Assembly (NCBI RefSeq): GCF_000177375.1
Contig: NZ_ADFR01000007.1
Coordinates: 1-64,000, forward strand
Length of the DNA: 64,000 nucleotides
Source of the DNA: Bulleidia extructa W1219
Lineage (GTDB): Bacteria; Bacillota_I; Bacilli_A; Erysipelotrichales; Erysipelotrichaceae
Direction of reading: 5' to 3'
Part shown: positions 9,200 to 17,667 of the stretch, piece by piece
Layout: each line of letters starts with the position of its first letter
Numbering within the stretch: the first letter of the stretch is position 1
Program-made: the position numbers and the translations under genes
The notes under the pieces: model-generated
Told to the model about the DNA's origin: nothing
Databases searched by the model: none
What the model saw: only the letters and a program-made list of their open reading frames with translations

Positions 9200-9790
9200 T
9201 TATCTTAAGAGCATCATGTATTCATTTATTTTTTCCGACAGCTTTTCTTTATTATTTTCCAGATTTAAATAAAAGCCTGTAACTCCATAGCCGATCATAC
9301 TGTAAAGTGCTGTTAAGCGATAATGATTTTCTAATTTCTTATCATTAATGGCGGAGGCTTGTTCTATATTTGCTGTATGACATATAGATTCAAAAGTTTT
9401 TCTATTCATGATCTTTTGACAAAATCTCCAGGCGTCCTCTTCTGTTTCATCGTGATGCTTAGGTGTAGACCAAACCTTTTTCATTTGAGCCACTCTGAAA
9501 TTTTTATCATTTTTTCTTCCGGTTTCATGATAAATATGTGCTTCCAATCCCCAGATCCAGATAATAAAATCCCATACATTGTAGTTAATTTTCTCCGGAA
9601 TCTCGATATTTACATATTCGCAAACTTTCAATGCTTCTTCCTTGCAATCATCAATATATAGCCAATACGCAAGTTCACACAAAGAAGACATATCTGCATT
9701 TTTTGTAAAAGAACAACTTTTACCTAATTTTTTACAGAGTCTGACAATTTCTCGTTCTTCATGATTCATCATAATATCATCAAACAACAT
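9200..9790 (-). CDS. Hypothetical protein (196 aa), accessory region
   Basis: The sequence is predicted soluble and largely helical, rich in Trp, Glu and Lys, with helical stretches resembling tetratricopeptide-like folds (LCELAYWLYIDDCKEEALKV). I cannot name a family with confidence. GTGGAG stands eight bases before the ATG at 9790, and a terminator follows the stop. The neighbours are other small soluble accessory genes. An immunity-protein role is possible from context, but no toxin gene is visible here. Confidence 0.7.
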   Translation of the reverse strand: MLFDDIMMNHEEREIVRLCKKLGKSCSFTKNADMSSLCELAYWLYIDDCKEEALKVCEYVNIEIPEKINYNVWDFIIWIWGLEAHIYHETGRKNDKNFRVAQMKKVWSTPKHHDETEEDAWRFCQKIMNRKTFESICHTANIEQASAINDKKLENHYRLTALYSMIGYGVTGFYLNLENNKEKLSEKINEYMMLLR

Positions 9791-9857
9791 ATGTATTACT
9801 CCACAACTTCTAATCGCCCCATTTCTATAAATGAGAGTTATTCACTTTCTCATTTCA

Positions 9858-10363
9858 TTAACAAATCGTAACCAATACATTACCATTTGCTTCTACTATT
9901 TTTTTATAGAAGTCTTTCAGATTTTGAAAGCAGTCCATCAGTTCTTCTTTTATTTCATCAGCTTCTTCTTCATAATCCCAAATATCGGGATACAAGTCCG
10001 CTTTTTGGCATTCCTCCATGCTGAAATTTTCCATAGCCTTCTCTATATCAAAATGTTCCAGAGCCAAAACAATATCTTTCACCCTTGATTTTTCTGTGTA
10101 AGCTAGGTATTCTTCCACATCTTCAATAGGAACCAACCCCACAACCGCTTCACTGAGAGGATTATTTTTAATAGGTTCACTACTACCTACACCAGTCAAC
10201 ACAAAATGAAGTGCATCCCACATCTTGTCTAAATCAAGAAGTATCTTCACCCCTTCATTCTCATCTTCAACTTCTTCAAAAACCTTAGCTTTTTTCTCAT
10301 AAAAAGTTTTAAGTTTTTTAAATTTTTATCACTTAAATATTGATAATTAGCTATTATTCCCAT
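9858..10363 (-). pseudogene. DUF1877 (YfbM-like) protein, broken by a one-base shift at an A-run
   Basis: AGGAGG precedes an ATG at 10363, which encodes MGIIANYQYLSDKNLKN and then leaves the DUF1877 frame, stopping at a TGA at 10248-10250. The -1 frame continues with YEKKAKVFEEVEDENEGVKILLDLDKMWDALHFVLTG (quoted in two pieces: YEKKAKVFEE and KILLDLDKMWDALHFVLTG) to a stop at 9858. Joined, the product would be about 168 residues, the normal DUF1877 length. The switch point is A AAA AAC at 10313-10319, in the phase needed for -1 slippage; equally, one missing A in the run would explain it. The function of DUF1877 proteins is not settled. The gene is in a row of small accessory genes. Confidence 0.8.
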
Positions 10364-10381
10364 TTTTATTTCCTCCTAAAT

Positions 10382-10717
10382 TCAATCATAACTTAAATTT
10401 CTTAATTCATCAAAAGTTAATTCCGTATAATTCTTAGCTGAGTTCAAAACAGAATCCGTTGTATCAGGCAATCTATCCATCACTTTCTTAATATCTATAT
10501 CCTTAGGAAATGGGATAATATTCTCCTTCGCATCTTCACCATTATGTGCTAAAAATATAAACTCACCTGTCTTCCAATTTATATTGAAATGATGACTGAT
10601 ACCGACTTTTGTTTCTAAATCAAGCAGTTCTTCTTCCTGATTTATGAAATTTTCATATATAAATTCAAACAAGGCTTCCTGATTTATTTTGATGATTCTG
10701 CACACATTATCTTTCAC
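10382..10717 (-). CDS. Hypothetical protein (111 aa), accessory region
   Basis: The start is a GTG at 10717 with AGAGGAG six bases upstream. The protein is acidic and soluble, with no signal or membrane segment. It contains a short beta-type stretch (HHFNINWKTGEFIFLAHNG) and an Asp/Leu-rich C-terminus. I do not recognise the family. It lies 18 bases upstream of the DUF1877 start on the same strand, so the two are probably one transcript. Size and context resemble immunity-type accessory genes. Confidence 0.65.
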   Translation of the reverse strand: MKDNVCRIIKINQEALFEFIYENFINQEEELLDLETKVGISHHFNINWKTGEFIFLAHNGEDAKENIIPFPKDIDIKKVMDRLPDTTDSVLNSAKNYTELTFDELRNLSYD

Positions 10718-11003
10718 TTATTTCTCCTCTTACTGGTACCAAAAACACTCATTTATTATACCTAATATTATTAGGATTATACCATATTTTCCCTTAGTTT
10801 TATAAGTCTAACTCTTGCTTCTTTACCTGCGTTAATCCTTTGTTTTCTTACCGTCATTTCTCTATCCATCTTCTAACAATTTCAGATTGTTCAGCCTCTT
10901 TTCATAGGTCTATCATTTGAGAAGATAGACCATCTTTTTCATTCCTCAAAGTACCTATTTTGCTTTTGCTGAATAATGAGATTTTTTCTTGATTTTAAAC
11001 AAC
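10718..11003. other. Non-coding gap with a hairpin and short decayed frames
   Basis: No gene is supported. GGTCTATC (10907-10914) and GATAGACC (10924-10931) form a perfect eight-base stem followed on the forward strand by ATCTTTTTC, a forward-facing terminator shape with no forward gene in front of it. A 30-codon reverse-strand frame (10777-10869) rich in Arg and Lys lacks a ribosome site and is probably a remnant. Confidence 0.4.
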
Positions 11004-11032
11004 AAAAAACAGTAAACTTATTCGATTTACTG
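11004..11032 (-). terminator. Terminator of the membrane-protein gene at 11.2-11.6 kb
   Basis: CAGTAAA and TTTACTG form a perfect stem with a nine-base loop; on the reverse strand it runs into six T residues. It closely matches the hairpin at 9123-9150, including flanking bases. Confidence 0.78.
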
Positions 11033-11156
11033 CCTGACAAGGTTTTACTATATATTTCTTATTTGTTGGTTTTAACTCTTTCCACTGTCTTCTTCATAAA
11101 GTTATATGTGAAAATCAGATTGGGCAACATTATACTGATCTTCCATACCTTTATCT

Positions 11157-11636
11157 TTAAAATTTGGGCATATATTTAATAAAAATCATCAACAAGCTGA
11201 TGATCAGAATAGCATAAAATAAAGTTGCTAATATTAATCTCTGTTTACTCTGACCTATTTTTCTTATTGATTTTTGTTCCAATATAATGACTAAAAATAG
11301 AAGAGCTTCCACAAAATATATGGAACCTAATGTATAAAATGCTGTCTTTGGGTTGGTGTAGAGTGAAAGATACCAAAAGAAGTCTCCGATATTTGTAAAT
11401 CTTATAAAATACAATCCAACAACCATAGGAATCGGCACAAGAAAACTGACTATCCAAGCTAATTTTTTATTTTTAACTTTTATTAAAGGCTCCAACTCAC
11501 CAAAATGTTTTGTATAATAGTCATTCGGAAAAAATAGATAACTCAGCAATCGTGAAAATCTTACGATTAAAATACTGCCAAACACAAACATCAAGATATA
11601 GCATAAAAAGTAATAAAGTATTTTATAATCAAACAT
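11157..11636 (-). CDS. Small integral membrane protein (159 aa), unknown
   Basis: Four hydrophobic segments are evident, near residues 8-30, 60-80, 100-118 and 135-155, separated by short basic loops (RKIGQSKQR before the last). No family motif is recognised and there is no signal peptidase site. The gene stands alone and has a clear hairpin terminator downstream. It sits among small soluble accessory genes, so it could be a stray immunity-type or transport-accessory gene; I infer nothing stronger. Confidence 0.65.
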   Translation of the reverse strand: MFDYKILYYFLCYILMFVFGSILIVRFSRLLSYLFFPNDYYTKHFGELEPLIKVKNKKLAWIVSFLVPIPMVVGLYFIRFTNIGDFFWYLSLYTNPKTAFYTLGSIYFVEALLFLVIILEQKSIRKIGQSKQRLILATLFYAILIISLLMIFIKYMPKF

Positions 11637-11639
11637 ATT

Positions 11640-11760
11640 TTTTATCTCATTAACCTTCCGTAATATATCCTAACCCCAATAAAAGACATCATTATACTCA
11701 GCAGAAGAAATATAATCCCGACAAAAGTAGAAGATATTTCAATCTCAATTCACATAATCC
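11640..11760 (-). pseudogene. Possible C-terminal scrap of a membrane protein
   Basis: A short reverse-strand frame ending just upstream of the 11157-11636 gene reads SSTFVGIIFLLLSIMMSFIG and then a basic tail. It is preceded in frame by a stop and lacks a start with a ribosome site. It looks like the end of a lost one- or two-helix membrane protein. Confidence 0.3.
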
Positions 11761-11781
11761 ATTATAGCATTTTTTCTACTA

Positions 11782-12048
11782 TCAGATTTCCCACTCACTT
11801 GTAAATCTTACATAAGAACAGATAGAAAAGTTTGTCCGGAAAGGTGTCTTTGCTGTTTCGGTTAAACTATATCTCTTACAAAGGTCTTTTCTTTCATCTT
11901 TTTTTGTTAGACTGCCATCAGGTTTTCGAAGTTTGGCTCATTCTTCTTGAATCAATACTTTCTTTTGTTCATTCATACTCTCTAAACTTTTCAATATTTT
12001 TAGTTCAATATTCTTTGGAGTATGGACCATGATAGACTTCGGATTCAT
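11782..12048 (-). pseudogene. Decayed small reading frame with an in-frame TGA
   Basis: From an ATG at 12048 the frame reads MNPKSIMVHTPKNIELKI and onward to VLIQEE, stops at TGA (11938-11940), and then stays open for 51 more codons (AKLRKPDGSLTKKDERK and beyond) to a TGA at 11782. TGA is clearly a stop elsewhere in the window. No ribosome site precedes the ATG. I take it as a gene in decay; family unknown. Confidence 0.35.
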
Positions 12049-12065
12049 CGGTTCTAACCATCCGT

Positions 12066-12485
12066 TTATTTTTCATCATAAATTGGTGGAATCGTAAAAA
12101 ACCTATCGTTTATCTTTATTTGAGCGTAAAGTATTTCATCTTTATAATAGTACCCTTTAAATAACGGATGTGGATTCAAACTCTTGAATATCTCATCAGG
12201 CAAACCTCTAAAATCATAATCTCTTAGCGCTCCTGCACCAAGCAATCTTTTTGTTCTATCAGCTTTGATTTCGTTAGCGTATGTTTGATAAAATGCTTCT
12301 GGATCATCTTCATAAAGCGCTATATCCCTTTCGTCTATCGCATAATACCGATCATAACCGGCCACCCACGAAATATGAACACAAAGTAAATACCGTTCTA
12401 TTTCCGGACAAAATCCTACTATGAAAAAATGCTCTCTATTGATTTTTGGATTTTCTATGGTTATTTTCTTTATGAACAAATTCAT
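12066..12485 (-). CDS. Hypothetical protein (about 139 aa), accessory region
   Basis: The protein is soluble and rich in aromatic residues (GYDRYYAIDERDIALYEDD, HPLFKGYYYKDEILYAQIK), with no recognised motif. Three possible starts (GTG, ATG, ATG) lie in a row; GGAG is best spaced for the ATG at 12485. The stop of the helicase gene's upstream neighbour is not overlapped: a 25-base gap separates it from the helicase 3' end, so it may be the last gene of the helicase transcript. Its composition is typical of immunity-type accessory proteins, but that is inference. Confidence 0.65.
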   Translation of the reverse strand: MNLFIKKITIENPKINREHFFIVGFCPEIERYLLCVHISWVAGYDRYYAIDERDIALYEDDPEAFYQTYANEIKADRTKRLLGAGALRDYDFRGLPDEIFKSLNPHPLFKGYYYKDEILYAQIKINDRFFTIPPIYDEK

Positions 12486-12510
12486 CATCACTCCGACCCC
12501 ATTATTTTCC

Positions 12511-15186
12511 CTATTTGTATTTTTGTAAGTGATGATCTTCTTTCCTATCTGATTGCTCTAAACCTTTTACAAAATTAGCATAAGAACGCATTCTTGCTTT
12601 CAAAAGAACTCGTCTCCCCTTTATATTTCTGGTATAGATTAAATCACAAGATCCCAAATGACGTTTTACTTGATTCAAAAATAACATAGCATCTTCTTTT
12701 TTCTTCTCAAAATAAGTCGGTACCACATAAAAGCGAAACATCCTTCCTTTTAAACGAATCAGATATCTTTGATTATTGACTACTCCCAAAAACTCATCGA
12801 CGCATTGAACAAAAATTTCCTTTTCTCGCAAAGACGCATTCATCAAATAGATACTGTGATAAAACTGATTACCTTCAACCATCACTCTGGAAGTTTCTAA
12901 AATTTCGCCTTTATCCACCAAAGCATCCCGAATGGATTTTCCAACTTGCTTTAAATACTTTCCTGGCGAAAGATGTAAGTAAATACGAAATATCAGATAG
13001 CAGAATAAAGAAATACCGATACCAATAAGAGCCATCCAGAACATATTAGAGGCACGAGATGAAAACAAAGAACGGAAAAATCTGTCGATAGAAATACCAA
13101 CCACCCAAAAAACGATATTGAAAAGGATCATCCCCAATACATCGTCAAAGGACGTTTTTGATTTTATCACATCATTATCTTCTTTAAACATAAGAACCGT
13201 TTCGTGGTGTTGATAAAGGGCATGATCCCACTTTTCTTTAAGACCCTCTCGTGAAGCAGAAAGAGCCAGCATTTCCTCGTTGATCCGTTTAATATTGTCA
13301 AGAGTAAACGGTTCTTTGATGGCTGTTAATCTACCCAATCCATTTTCAATCGTCATTCCATCATAACTGACACCCAAAAAACCTTCAAACTTTCGTTTTA
13401 AATTCATGTAATCTTCATTAACCGCTTGTTCTGTAAAACCAAGAATTCGCATTTTATCAATTTCTTCAGCTTTATCAATACAAACAAGGTGCCATATATT
13501 CGCCACTTTTGTTGGATCTTGATCGTAGGTACGAATCGCTCTTCCACGCATTTGATTACCCAAAACATAGCTACCAACAAAACTGGCCATAATAAGAGAA
13601 TTGATACAAGGAGAATCATAGCCTTCACCCAAAAGTGATTTTGTACCAATCATGATCTGAAAATAACCTTCTTCAAACAGTTTTGAAAGAATGGCAACCA
13701 TATCACTATTGGAAGCTGCCATCACCACTTGATCATACTGATCATAAAAAGAAGAGACCGTATAACTCTTACCATCGGCTAATTCTTTCAATCTCTCCAA
13801 ACTACCCTTCGGCACAACCACAAGACTGCCACATACAATACCTAACAAACAAGCGGGATCCATTTCTTTTCTTAACGTCTCAAAAATAGGAATCACACCT
13901 AAATCATGAAAGGATTGCCCTGTCCCTAACATCGTGATATATTCCTTCTTAATATAATCCGTTAGAATCAACATTCGCAATGTGTCTTTGTTATGACGAT
14001 ATTCTGTTTTACAAATAGTCACAAGATTAGGTAATTTACTCATGCTGTTCACTAACAAAGATTGAATAACAGCATTATCTGTCAGAATGACTTTACACTT
14101 ATAAATCATATGATTTTTCTTTAAAAAAATGATTAATTGTTCTCGATAAGAAGGATCACATGAATAAGAATCTATATCATCGTATAAAAAACCTTGCAAA
14201 AGTTTTTCAAAGAAAGGTAACGTCATATTCGGAAACTGAATAATCCCCATTAATTTCTTCCATCTTTTATCATATTCGACAGAATGAGAATGATAATAAA
14301 ACAAAAGAGAAGATAAATACATCGGATCTTCCAGCATCTCATCGGCATAATGGTCATAATCATTGATTTTCTTATGATTTTTCAAAGCTGAAAGAAGATC
14401 CTGATGGTTCATCAAATAATGAAAAATATTGATTTTCGTCTGATGATGATCTTGAATTACTTTTCTTTCATTAGCGGTTGGATAACTAAACAGAACATAA
14501 TCTTGATGAGGACAAAGATTTTTTTCTTTCACCAATTCAGGAATACTGATTTCCTCATCCACCTCTCCACACATCTGAATATATCGATTCCATTCACTTT
14601 TTTGCGCATCATAAGGAGGTGTCGCTGTCAAAGAGATAATGGTCACATGATCTCTACCAATCGTAGAAATAAATTCTTCCAGTGCCTTCCACCACTCTTT
14701 ATGAAGATGGTGACATTCGTCTAAACAAATGACTTCAATCGGATTTTCTTTTATGTTTTTGATGAAATCAAATTGTGAATAATCCACCTCATTTTTTTCT
14801 ACTACATCATCCGTTTCTTGATCGTCACGCTCTTCTCCTTTAAATCGTGTCATAGCACTAAAAAGAGTCTGGTAAGTAATCGATGTAATATCACTATTTT
14901 CTACCAGAGAGGTTGATAATGTGATTGAATGATCTAATAAAAACGCTTCTTCAATTCGTTGTATCCATTGATTTCTAATCACCAGTCGTGGCGAAATAAT
15001 CAACGCTCTTTTTCCTAACCGTCTGATTAACTCAATGCCTAATGTTGTTTTTCCACTGCCGGGTGGTGCCACGATATGAATTTTCTTATCTTTTAGATAA
15101 GTCGTTGCTTGATCTAATATTTTTTTCTGATAATCTCGAAAAGCTCCTTTAAACTGAAGATGATTGTCATAAAGATTACTGGTCAT
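12511..15186 (-). CDS. SF2 DExH helicase with two membrane segments
   Basis: The 891-residue protein has a full superfamily 2 helicase core: Walker A APPGSGKTT (40-48), motif II DECHH (156-160), motif III SLTATPP (185-191), and C-terminal motifs V/VI (IGTKSLLGEGYDSP, NQMRGRAIRT). Unusually, two hydrophobic segments follow at about 683-700 (ILFNIVFWVVGIS) and 713-736 (ALIGIGISLFCYLIFRIYL). A basic, soluble tail of about 150 residues follows (LKGRMFRFYVVPTYFEKK, RNIKGRRVLLKARMR). Thus the helicase is probably tethered to the inner face of the membrane. GGAG is correctly spaced before the ATG. It lies next to the accessory patch. A defence or DNA-uptake role is conceivable, but nothing in the sequence proves it. 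Confidence 0.85.
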   Translation of the reverse strand: MTSNLYDNHLQFKGAFRDYQKKILDQATTYLKDKKIHIVAPPGSGKTTLGIELIRRLGKRALIISPRLVIRNQWIQRIEEAFLLDHSITLSTSLVENSDITSITYQTLFSAMTRFKGEERDDQETDDVVEKNEVDYSQFDFIKNIKENPIEVICLDECHHLHKEWWKALEEFISTIGRDHVTIISLTATPPYDAQKSEWNRYIQMCGEVDEEISIPELVKEKNLCPHQDYVLFSYPTANERKVIQDHHQTKINIFHYLMNHQDLLSALKNHKKINDYDHYADEMLEDPMYLSSLLFYYHSHSVEYDKRWKKLMGIIQFPNMTLPFFEKLLQGFLYDDIDSYSCDPSYREQLIIFLKKNHMIYKCKVILTDNAVIQSLLVNSMSKLPNLVTICKTEYRHNKDTLRMLILTDYIKKEYITMLGTGQSFHDLGVIPIFETLRKEMDPACLLGIVCGSLVVVPKGSLERLKELADGKSYTVSSFYDQYDQVVMAASNSDMVAILSKLFEEGYFQIMIGTKSLLGEGYDSPCINSLIMASFVGSYVLGNQMRGRAIRTYDQDPTKVANIWHLVCIDKAEEIDKMRILGFTEQAVNEDYMNLKRKFEGFLGVSYDGMTIENGLGRLTAIKEPFTLDNIKRINEEMLALSASREGLKEKWDHALYQHHETVLMFKEDNDVIKSKTSFDDVLGMILFNIVFWVVGISIDRFFRSLFSSRASNMFWMALIGIGISLFCYLIFRIYLHLSPGKYLKQVGKSIRDALVDKGEILETSRVMVEGNQFYHSIYLMNASLREKEIFVQCVDEFLGVVNNQRYLIRLKGRMFRFYVVPTYFEKKKEDAMLFLNQVKRHLGSCDLIYTRNIKGRRVLLKARMRSYANFVKGLEQSDRKEDHHLQKYK

Positions 15187-15384: not shown

Positions 15385-17667
15385 TCATTTCTGAATTCCA
15401 GCTAAGGATAAAACTTCTTCAATTGTTGAAACAGTGAGGATCTTTAATTGATCTTTCACTTCTTGAGGAACATCTTTTAAGTTCTTTTCATTGTCCTTTG
15501 GAATCAAAACGGTTTTCACACCCGATCGAGCAGCCGCCATCAATTTTTCAGGTAAGCCCCCTATTGGCATCACTCCACCACGAAGTGAAATTTCTCCTGT
15601 CATGGCTAGATTTGGATTTACTTTCTGTTTTGTCAACAAAGACGCTAAAGCCGTTGTGACAGTAATACCGGCACTCGGTCCATCCTTTTTGACCGATCCG
15701 GATGGAAAATGAATGTGAATATCGTGATTTTCTAATTGTTTCGCTTCTTTAGGAAAAATTGATTTCACCAAAGACAAAGCAATTTGAACCGATTCTTGCA
15801 TCACCGACCCTAGTTGCCCTGTGACCTTGATGTTTCCTTTTCCCTCACTCACTAAGCTTTCAATAAAGAGAATTTCTCCACCGGAAGCTGTCCAAGCTAA
15901 TCCTGTTACAATACCAACTTTAGTATTTCTTTGAATTTTTTCATGTTCAATAGGATCCATATCCAACACTTCTGACAAATTCTTCTGACTCACATGAAAC
16001 TTTGTCTGACGACCACGGGCAATCAAAACAGCGGTATACCGACAAATTTGGTCCATTCTCTTTTTCAGGCCACGAACCCCGCTTTCCATCGTATAACTAG
16101 AAATAATCGTTCGTATACCCGCATCGCTCACTGCCAACATCGCCTTTTCTATGCCCATTTGTTTCATAGACTTAGGCAATAAATGGCGTTTGGCAATCTG
16201 GAATTTTTCACTGGCTGTATAGCCTTGAAACATAATGACTTCCATACGATTTAAAAGCGGTTCGGGAATCGTATCTAAGCTATTCGCTGTACAAATAAAT
16301 AGGACATTGGATAAATCATACGGTACATTCATATAGTGATCGGTGAATGTATGATTTTGTTCGGGATCCAAAACCTCTAATAAAGCTGAAGCCGGATCAC
16401 CATTATATGAAGAGGATAATTTATCAATTTCATCCAAAACCATCACCGGATTAGAAGAACCGGCTTTCTGAATCCCATCCATAATTCTCCCCGGCATGGC
16501 ACCGATATAAGTACGACGATGACCACGAATATCTGAACTATCTCGAACACCGCCTAAAGCCACTCGTACGTACTCTCGATTTAGTGCTCTAGCAATGGAT
16601 TTACCAACAGACGTCTTCCCGGTCCCGGGAGCCCCGACAAACAAGAGAATTGATCCCGACTGCTTATGATTCAAATCCATGACAGCGATTTGTTCTAAAA
16701 TTCGTTTTTTCACTTTCTGTAAACCATAATGGTCTTCATCCAAGATTTCCTCAGCCTTTTGAATATCTATCTTTTCCAATGGATTTGTTTGCCAAGATAG
16801 TGAAGTCAAAAAATCTAAATAGTTATACAAATTGCCATATTCAGGAGAATTTGAACCTTCTTGTTTCATACGAGAAAGAATTTTTTCCGCCTCTTTTAAA
16901 GCCGTTTCATTCATACTGGATTCTTGGATTCTTTTTTCTAATTTACGAATATCACTCACATTTTCCGGATGCATCTCATCCAGTTCTTTTTGTAAAAATT
17001 CAATTTGTTTCTTAATGGCCATTTCTCGATAAGCTTTTTGATTATCTTCTTCTTGAGCAGAACTGGCCGCCTTTGAGACATTACTCATTTCTGTGTATTC
17101 CAAGACATATTTTTCAATCATGGATAAACGCTTTTCTTGTGAATCTTCCGCTAATAAAGCGTATTTATCTTCCGCGGTAATACTGATTAATTGAGACATA
17201 CCCGTCATGATCTCTTCCGCTGTTGTCATTTGTTGGATATAACTTTTTGCCCCTAAAGCCCAACGATATTGAGATGTAAATTGGATCAGGCTATTCTTTA
17301 AGCCTTGGATGCGACTTTGGTAATTTTGTTCATCCACATCTTCCGTTTCCGGGTGATTGATCACACCAGTAACCCCCAACGTTCGATTTGAGTGTAAATA
17401 TAAATCTTCAAATTGAACACGATTATACGTCTTCACAATCAAAAAGCCATCTGTATGAACTTCTGTAATGATTCCGGAAACCCCTAAACCATAAAAATTC
17501 TCCGGAAGAAAGTTCTCTTCATTCAATGCCTTTTTCTCTAGTGCAAAATATATTTTTTCTCCTACTTTCGCTTCTTTTCCGGTGGCTTCTTTAAAAGACT
17601 CACTTGTCAAAAAAACGGTTGAATGAGGAAGGATCACAACATTATAAATAGGAACGATTTCTGCCAT
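15385..17667 (-). CDS. lon: ATP-dependent protease La (Lon)
   Basis: Lon unfolds and degrades damaged or regulatory proteins in the cytoplasm. The 760-residue protein has the N-terminal substrate-binding domain (VVILPHSTVFL at the start), an AAA+ core with Walker A GAPGTGKTS and MVLDEIDKL, and the C-terminal protease domain with Ser665 in KDGPSAGIT and Lys708 in LPEKLMAAA. AGAAAGG lies ten bases before the ATG, and TATAAT at 17685-17690 serves as the -10. A CIRCE element lies immediately upstream, so HrcA control is likely. A strong terminator follows, making it monocistronic. Confidence 0.97.
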   Translation of the reverse strand: MAEIVPIYNVVILPHSTVFLTSESFKEATGKEAKVGEKIYFALEKKALNEENFLPENFYGLGVSGIITEVHTDGFLIVKTYNRVQFEDLYLHSNRTLGVTGVINHPETEDVDEQNYQSRIQGLKNSLIQFTSQYRWALGAKSYIQQMTTAEEIMTGMSQLISITAEDKYALLAEDSQEKRLSMIEKYVLEYTEMSNVSKAASSAQEEDNQKAYREMAIKKQIEFLQKELDEMHPENVSDIRKLEKRIQESSMNETALKEAEKILSRMKQEGSNSPEYGNLYNYLDFLTSLSWQTNPLEKIDIQKAEEILDEDHYGLQKVKKRILEQIAVMDLNHKQSGSILLFVGAPGTGKTSVGKSIARALNREYVRVALGGVRDSSDIRGHRRTYIGAMPGRIMDGIQKAGSSNPVMVLDEIDKLSSSYNGDPASALLEVLDPEQNHTFTDHYMNVPYDLSNVLFICTANSLDTIPEPLLNRMEVIMFQGYTASEKFQIAKRHLLPKSMKQMGIEKAMLAVSDAGIRTIISSYTMESGVRGLKKRMDQICRYTAVLIARGRQTKFHVSQKNLSEVLDMDPIEHEKIQRNTKVGIVTGLAWTASGGEILFIESLVSEGKGNIKVTGQLGSVMQESVQIALSLVKSIFPKEAKQLENHDIHIHFPSGSVKKDGPSAGITVTTALASLLTKQKVNPNLAMTGEISLRGGVMPIGGLPEKLMAAARSGVKTVLIPKDNEKNLKDVPQEVKDQLKILTVSTIEEVLSLAGIQK

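Follow-up and report, generated by a model that had tools for sequence, protein, structure and literature searches.

The SF2 motors whose cores lie closest to the protein described here, XPB, RIG-I, FANCM and RadD, all act on nucleic acid, mostly in duplex form, and their folds do not separate DNA-acting from RNA-acting enzymes. RadD, a stand-alone bacterial SF2 enzyme of the ResIII type, is soluble. FANCM/Hef and the RIG-I-like helicases (RIG-I, MDA5 and LGP2) have a helical insertion between their RecA domains, and the R subunits of type I and type III restriction systems and Cas3 are built on a ResIII-type ATPase core. In the open-licence literature we found no paper on a membrane-anchored helicase of the kind described below.

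Here, we report the analysis of a gene at 12511-15186 (minus strand) of the window, the stretch of 64,000 nucleotides of Bulleidia extructa W1219 that was examined. The open reading frame is intact, starts with ATG and encodes a product of 891 aa; the gene was assigned as a membrane-anchored SF2 helicase from the open reading frame, Pfam, an AlphaFold model and a survey of homologues. A sequence-only reading had proposed it as the best candidate in the window for an undescribed system. That proposal stands in so far as we find an unnamed family of membrane-anchored helicases that is accessory and moves horizontally; it does not stand as a defence system recognizable from this window. The account that we favour, and hold with somewhat more belief than doubt, is that of a family of stand-alone, membrane-tethered SF2 translocases with an accessory function, predicted from sequence and model to act on nucleic acid near the membrane. 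In gut and oral bacteria the family provides a widespread and, by its motifs, catalytically intact motor, predicted to be fixed at the membrane and ending in a C-terminal domain without a recognized fold. A helicase of this kind that works on incoming DNA would add a new barrier, made by a single gene, against phages, plasmids or transformation; one that works on the cell's own DNA would be a rare case of a repair-type helicase anchored in the membrane.

Helicase core, membrane hairpin and C-terminal domain

As established from sequence and model, the predicted chain combines an ATPase core of the XPB/FANCM/RIG-I type, including a helical insertion, with a membrane hairpin and a family-specific C-terminal domain. 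In the whole-chain AlphaFold model (mean pLDDT 84.5; input alignment of 52 sequences), two RecA domains with the insertion are followed by two 29-residue helices and then by a folded domain that ends in a short disordered tail. The core (residues 1-640; 13267-15186, minus strand, as for all features of the gene below) matches Pfam ResIII (E=6e-19) and DEAD (E=3e-9), with Helicase_C under its cut-off. The features of SF2 membership are present: Walker A, DExH, motif III and a motif VI with arginine fingers. Across the 52 sequences, the Walker A motif PPGSGKTT (residues 41-48; 15043-15066) has P42, G43, G45, K46 and T47 invariant, motif II DECHH (156-160; 14707-14721) has D156, E157, H159 and H160, motif III SLTATPP (185-191; 14614-14634) has L186-P191, and motif VI QMRGRAIR (545-552; 13531-13554) has Q545-A550 and R552. 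The full helicase core claimed from the sequence is thus confirmed, its four motifs being invariant or nearly so.

Among solved sequences, the matches were to XPB helicases and confined to the first hundred residues, with one marginal match besides. By structural comparison with VIA, the nearest fold is XPB in TFIIH (Z 23.7, rmsd 3.8, 381 aligned), followed by RIG-I (Z 21), FANCM (Z 21) and RadD (Z 19.7). Foldseek places MDA5, LGP2 and RIG-I first (E about 1e-14), with low TM-scores of about 0.3-0.4. Since these top Foldseek matches are RNA helicases, RNA has to be considered as a substrate, and a membrane-tethered RNA helicase or dsRNA sensor would also accord with the helical insertion (residues 238-402; 13981-14475, from the secondary structure of the model), which presumably, judging from its position, occupies the same place as the Hel2i of RIG-I and the insertion of FANCM/Hef. 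Against this stand the low TM-scores, the higher VIA rank of the DNA-acting XPB and the failure of SF2 folds to discriminate between the two substrates. These structural ranks lie near one another and do not discriminate DNA from RNA; we regard the RNA helicase or sensor as unlikely, and an RNA role as less probable than either control of incoming DNA or a role in repair or chromosome handling.

The two helices that follow the core (residues 677-705, 13072-13158; residues 711-739, 12970-13056) were located by the AlphaFold model and by hydropathy, with Kyte-Doolittle maxima of 2.13 and 2.22. At a threshold of KD>=1.0, both segments occur at the same distance from the C terminus in 82 of the 86 distinct long Bacillota homologues, which bears out the two C-terminal hydrophobic segments noted in the sequence; at least one segment reaches KD>=1.6 in 85 of the 86, and all 86 have at least one at the lenient KD>=1.0. 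Because it is kept across the Bacillota homologues, the hairpin is a conserved property rather than a chance one. By sequence and model, the two conserved hydrophobic helices are long enough to span a membrane, as expected of an integral membrane protein. Both soluble parts would be cytoplasmic, since the core needs ATP and the two membrane helices return the chain to the same side.

The hairpin is missing from alphaproteobacterial relatives. Homologues without the hydrophobic segments, named beforehand as an argument against the proposal, thus exist in part of the family only: Bacillota proteins keep the segments and alphaproteobacterial ones do not. A homologue on a Tritonibacter plasmid aligns over the helicase and the C-terminal domain, with a short linker in place of the hairpin, and one on a Rhodovulum plasmid aligns over the helicase, this copy being broken by stops or frameshifts (locus L117, 8848-11183). 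From these hairpin-free forms it follows that the hairpin was either gained in the Gram-positive lineage or lost in the other, and that the basic activity does not depend on anchoring. At the alphaproteobacterial loci (L115, 9392-11977; L117, 8486-8851), the start of the helicase gene is overlapped by an upstream gene of 121-145 aa with no Pfam match; no relative of this gene adjoins the Bacillota copies. In Tritonibacter, two DUF4178 proteins are encoded just upstream on the opposite strand.

The C-terminal part had been read as a basic tail. Most of it is instead a folded alpha/beta domain (residues 740-875; 12562-12969), confidently predicted when residues 740-891 were modelled alone (pLDDT 90.7), and only the last 16 or so residues (876-891; 12514-12561; pLDDT <50) form a disordered charged tail. 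Comparison of the domain with solved structures gave nothing convincing (Foldseek best E 0.37, VIA best Z 3.7), which does not prove a new fold. Its invariant residues are R807, Y808, P823, Y851, T852, G857, L861 and R865, and K, R, N and Q are conserved at further positions; as no acidic residue or histidine is invariant, a metal nuclease is disfavoured, and the conserved residues suggest that the domain binds an anionic ligand. Throughout 198 Bacilli genomes the domain was seen solely at the end of these helicases and never apart from them; it is kept even where the hairpin is missing, as in Tritonibacter.

Distribution and gene neighbours

The helicase is distributed as an accessory gene. 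Among 100 relatives searched, a full-length copy was found in none of the 59 other genomes of the same genus and the gene occurs in 11 of the 40 genomes of the sister family, some of these copies being fragmentary. It is present in 18 of 296 sampled Bacilli, in 65 of 284 streptococci and in many Lachnospiraceae, and several copies in relatives are broken by stops or frameshifts. In a tree of 38 sequences, the window protein and its homologue from Eggerthia catenaformis (59% identical) lie inside an otherwise Lachnospiraceae/Oscillospiraceae clade (support 100/99) and do not group with the other Erysipelotrichales copies; those of streptococci fall into a single clade. The placement inside the Lachnospiraceae clade argues for horizontal transfer of this accessory gene from family to family. 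Carriage as phage cargo was considered and rejected: IMG/VR contigs held no full-length relative, only 17 partial matches to the core. The helicase is also encoded on two unannotated faecal scaffolds labelled 'Bacteriophage sp.', which may be bacterial contigs.

No partner gene recurs across genera in the clustered neighbours of about 95-100 loci. The comparison of neighbours proposed with the sequence-only reading thus yielded homologues and no common partner. Synteny is restricted to the genus level, with der-plsY-gpsA-spoIVA in Mediterraneibacter, DegV in Massilimicrobiota and a VTT-domain gene in streptococci. As for a conserved housekeeping gene with constant non-defence neighbours, the surroundings are constant inside a genus, for example beside spoIVA in Mediterraneibacter, but not across genera, and the gene is accessory. 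Near neighbours outside streptococci are, by Pfam, response regulators, two-component proteins, DegV, phosphorylases, and sporulation and metabolic enzymes. PADLOC assigned one type II RM pair and generic matches to 120 proteins encoded near the helicase at about 40 non-streptococcal loci, and a similar generic level to 117 control genes six to seven places away, a rough comparison as the output lists families and not proteins. Outside streptococci, the near neighbours show no clear enrichment in defence genes.

These data bear on a lineage-specific helicase for DNA repair or chromosome handling at the membrane, doing RadD- or XPB-like work without a defence role. The core is nearest XPB, with RadD close, the neighbours are mostly metabolic, sporulation and regulatory genes, and the position is stable within genera; yet the gene is absent from most relatives with no evident replacement, has been transferred horizontally and has no repair gene recurring beside it. 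We give this explanation a little over one chance in three.

The defence hint drawn from the neighbours in the window was not upheld. A 141-aa gene lies 20 bp downstream of the helicase. On the strength of that short gap, the helicase and the downstream small genes could work together in this genome as a single system for defence or toxin immunity. The sole relative of the 141-aa gene in 100 genomes, however, is separated from the helicase of its genome by about 17 kb, the gene is missing from every other helicase locus examined, and the genes that follow are decayed or of the DUF1877/DUF6707 type. An operon of the helicase with the 141-aa gene was therefore rejected, and such a joint system, disfavoured already by the neighbour comparison, is very improbable. 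Upstream of the helicase start, a promoter scan found TTGAAT-N16-TATAAT at 21 nt, which carries little weight because 19 such sites were seen against 16 expected.

At 9200-12491 (minus strand), the window contains small genes on one strand, encoding DUF6707, DUF1877, a 111-aa protein, a 159-aa membrane protein and the 141-aa orphan. The stretches between them look like decayed frames, in agreement with the decay suspected earlier: the region at 9.2-12.5 kb is partly decayed, as in the DUF1877 gene (9858-10370, minus strand), which is frameshifted near its N terminus. With its first 38 or so residues (MGIIANYQYLSD...) read in a different frame, this gene is either a pseudogene or contains a sequencing error. 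On the other side of the helicase, 15385-17667 (minus strand) encodes a second, divergent Lon protease, 37% identical to the other Lon of the genome (contig C1), with close orthologues in only some Erysipelotrichales. Its synteny in relatives is not conserved, and the boundaries of an insertion in the window could therefore not be set.

The streptococcal hotspot and a possible role in defence

In the Mitis-group streptococci examined, a divergent VTT-domain gene precedes the helicase, which stands at one edge of a hotspot extending to a DUF1722/ybgA gene and metE. The cargo varies and includes at least two kinds of type I RM, a type IIG-like enzyme, AbiH, a ThsA-like SIR2 protein and others; the loci L174-L213 also contain large genes without a PADLOC match, such as those of 645 aa (L180:9304-11238) and 747 aa (L190:6046-8286). 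The hotspot marked by the helicase is worth mining. Cargo was present in nearly all of twenty sites with the helicase and of twenty chosen for lacking it. As cargo is found with or without it, the helicase borders this defence hotspot as an optional element, untied to any given cargo. Competence control of the streptococcal copies was rejected, as no CIN-box-like element (TACGAATA) was found upstream of 15 of them.

This position is the main contextual support for a single-gene defence against phages or plasmids, in which a membrane-held helicase would meet incoming DNA at its entry site and block or remodel it. The helicase is accessory, horizontally moving and sometimes broken, and sister genomes lack it at the same hotspot site, beside type I RM, AbiH and ThsA-like SIR2 genes. 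The hotspot counts as one evolutionary case, however, since the streptococcal copies are relatives at one site; the helicase is always at the edge, with cargo present either way, and may belong to the flank rather than to the cargo. Further points against defence are the neighbours outside streptococci, the weak and partial PADLOC matches to Cas3 and the fixed place next to spoIVA in Mediterraneibacter. The link to defence genes, seen independently in the Mitis group, keeps the defence idea possible, and we rate single-gene defence as tentative, at roughly one chance in three.

Proposed action and comparison with known motors

Returning to the favoured account of a membrane-tethered translocase, the core would grip duplex nucleic acid and be driven along it by ATP. 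The conserved basic C-terminal domain, positioned at the membrane, would bind or sense either that nucleic acid or a ligand on the membrane side and so may give substrate or site specificity there. The outcome would be displacement, unwinding or stalling of DNA near the membrane, an accessory function that would need no dedicated partner gene. Such a protein might handle incoming foreign DNA, a role that we put somewhat short of even, or, with about the same likelihood, the cell's own DNA at the membrane in stress, repair or segregation. A more specific version, in which a RIG-I/FANCM-like motor at the inner surface would serve as a single-protein immune sensor, recognizing foreign duplex via its C-terminal domain and blocking it or disturbing the membrane via the hairpin, seems improbable.

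There are distinguishable differences between this family and each of its nearest counterparts. XPB, whether in TFIIH or as archaeal XPBII in XPB-Bax1, shares the SF2 core and gives both the best structural score and the main matches among solved sequences; the NCBIfam XPB model NF045503, however, scores 33.3 bits against a curated cut-off of 610, over residues 15-110 only, and the helicase has no constant partner gene adjoining it, a membrane hairpin and a C-terminal domain of its own. XPB is further marked by damage-recognition and thumb domains; the structural searches here covered the model as one piece. With FANCM/Hef and the RIG-I-like helicases it shares the placing of the insertion (Z about 21), but it differs in having no domain before the core (no CARD), a low overall TM-score and a hairpin. 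RIG-I-like receptors carry a zinc-binding, RNA-sensing C-terminal domain, and among the matches listed the C-terminal domain of the helicase gave none to that of RIG-I (best VIA Z 3.7).

The R subunits of type I and III restriction systems and Cas3 resemble it in the core, whereas the helicase has no constant methylase, specificity or Cas partner, and no metal nuclease site is apparent in its C-terminal domain. In the neighbour comparison, methylase and specificity partners were not conserved beside it, and the RM genes adjoining streptococcal copies include their own R subunits. Cas3 is defined by an HD nuclease domain and a cas operon; no HD family was matched by Pfam, no cas genes appeared among the neighbour families shown, and PADLOC 2023 gave no full-length match to any system-specific model, the best being Cas3 (22 bits over the core, weak and partial). 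RadD is the counterpart that shares its stand-alone bacterial form, and the two differ in the hairpin, which RadD lacks and the helicase described here is predicted to use as its membrane anchor.
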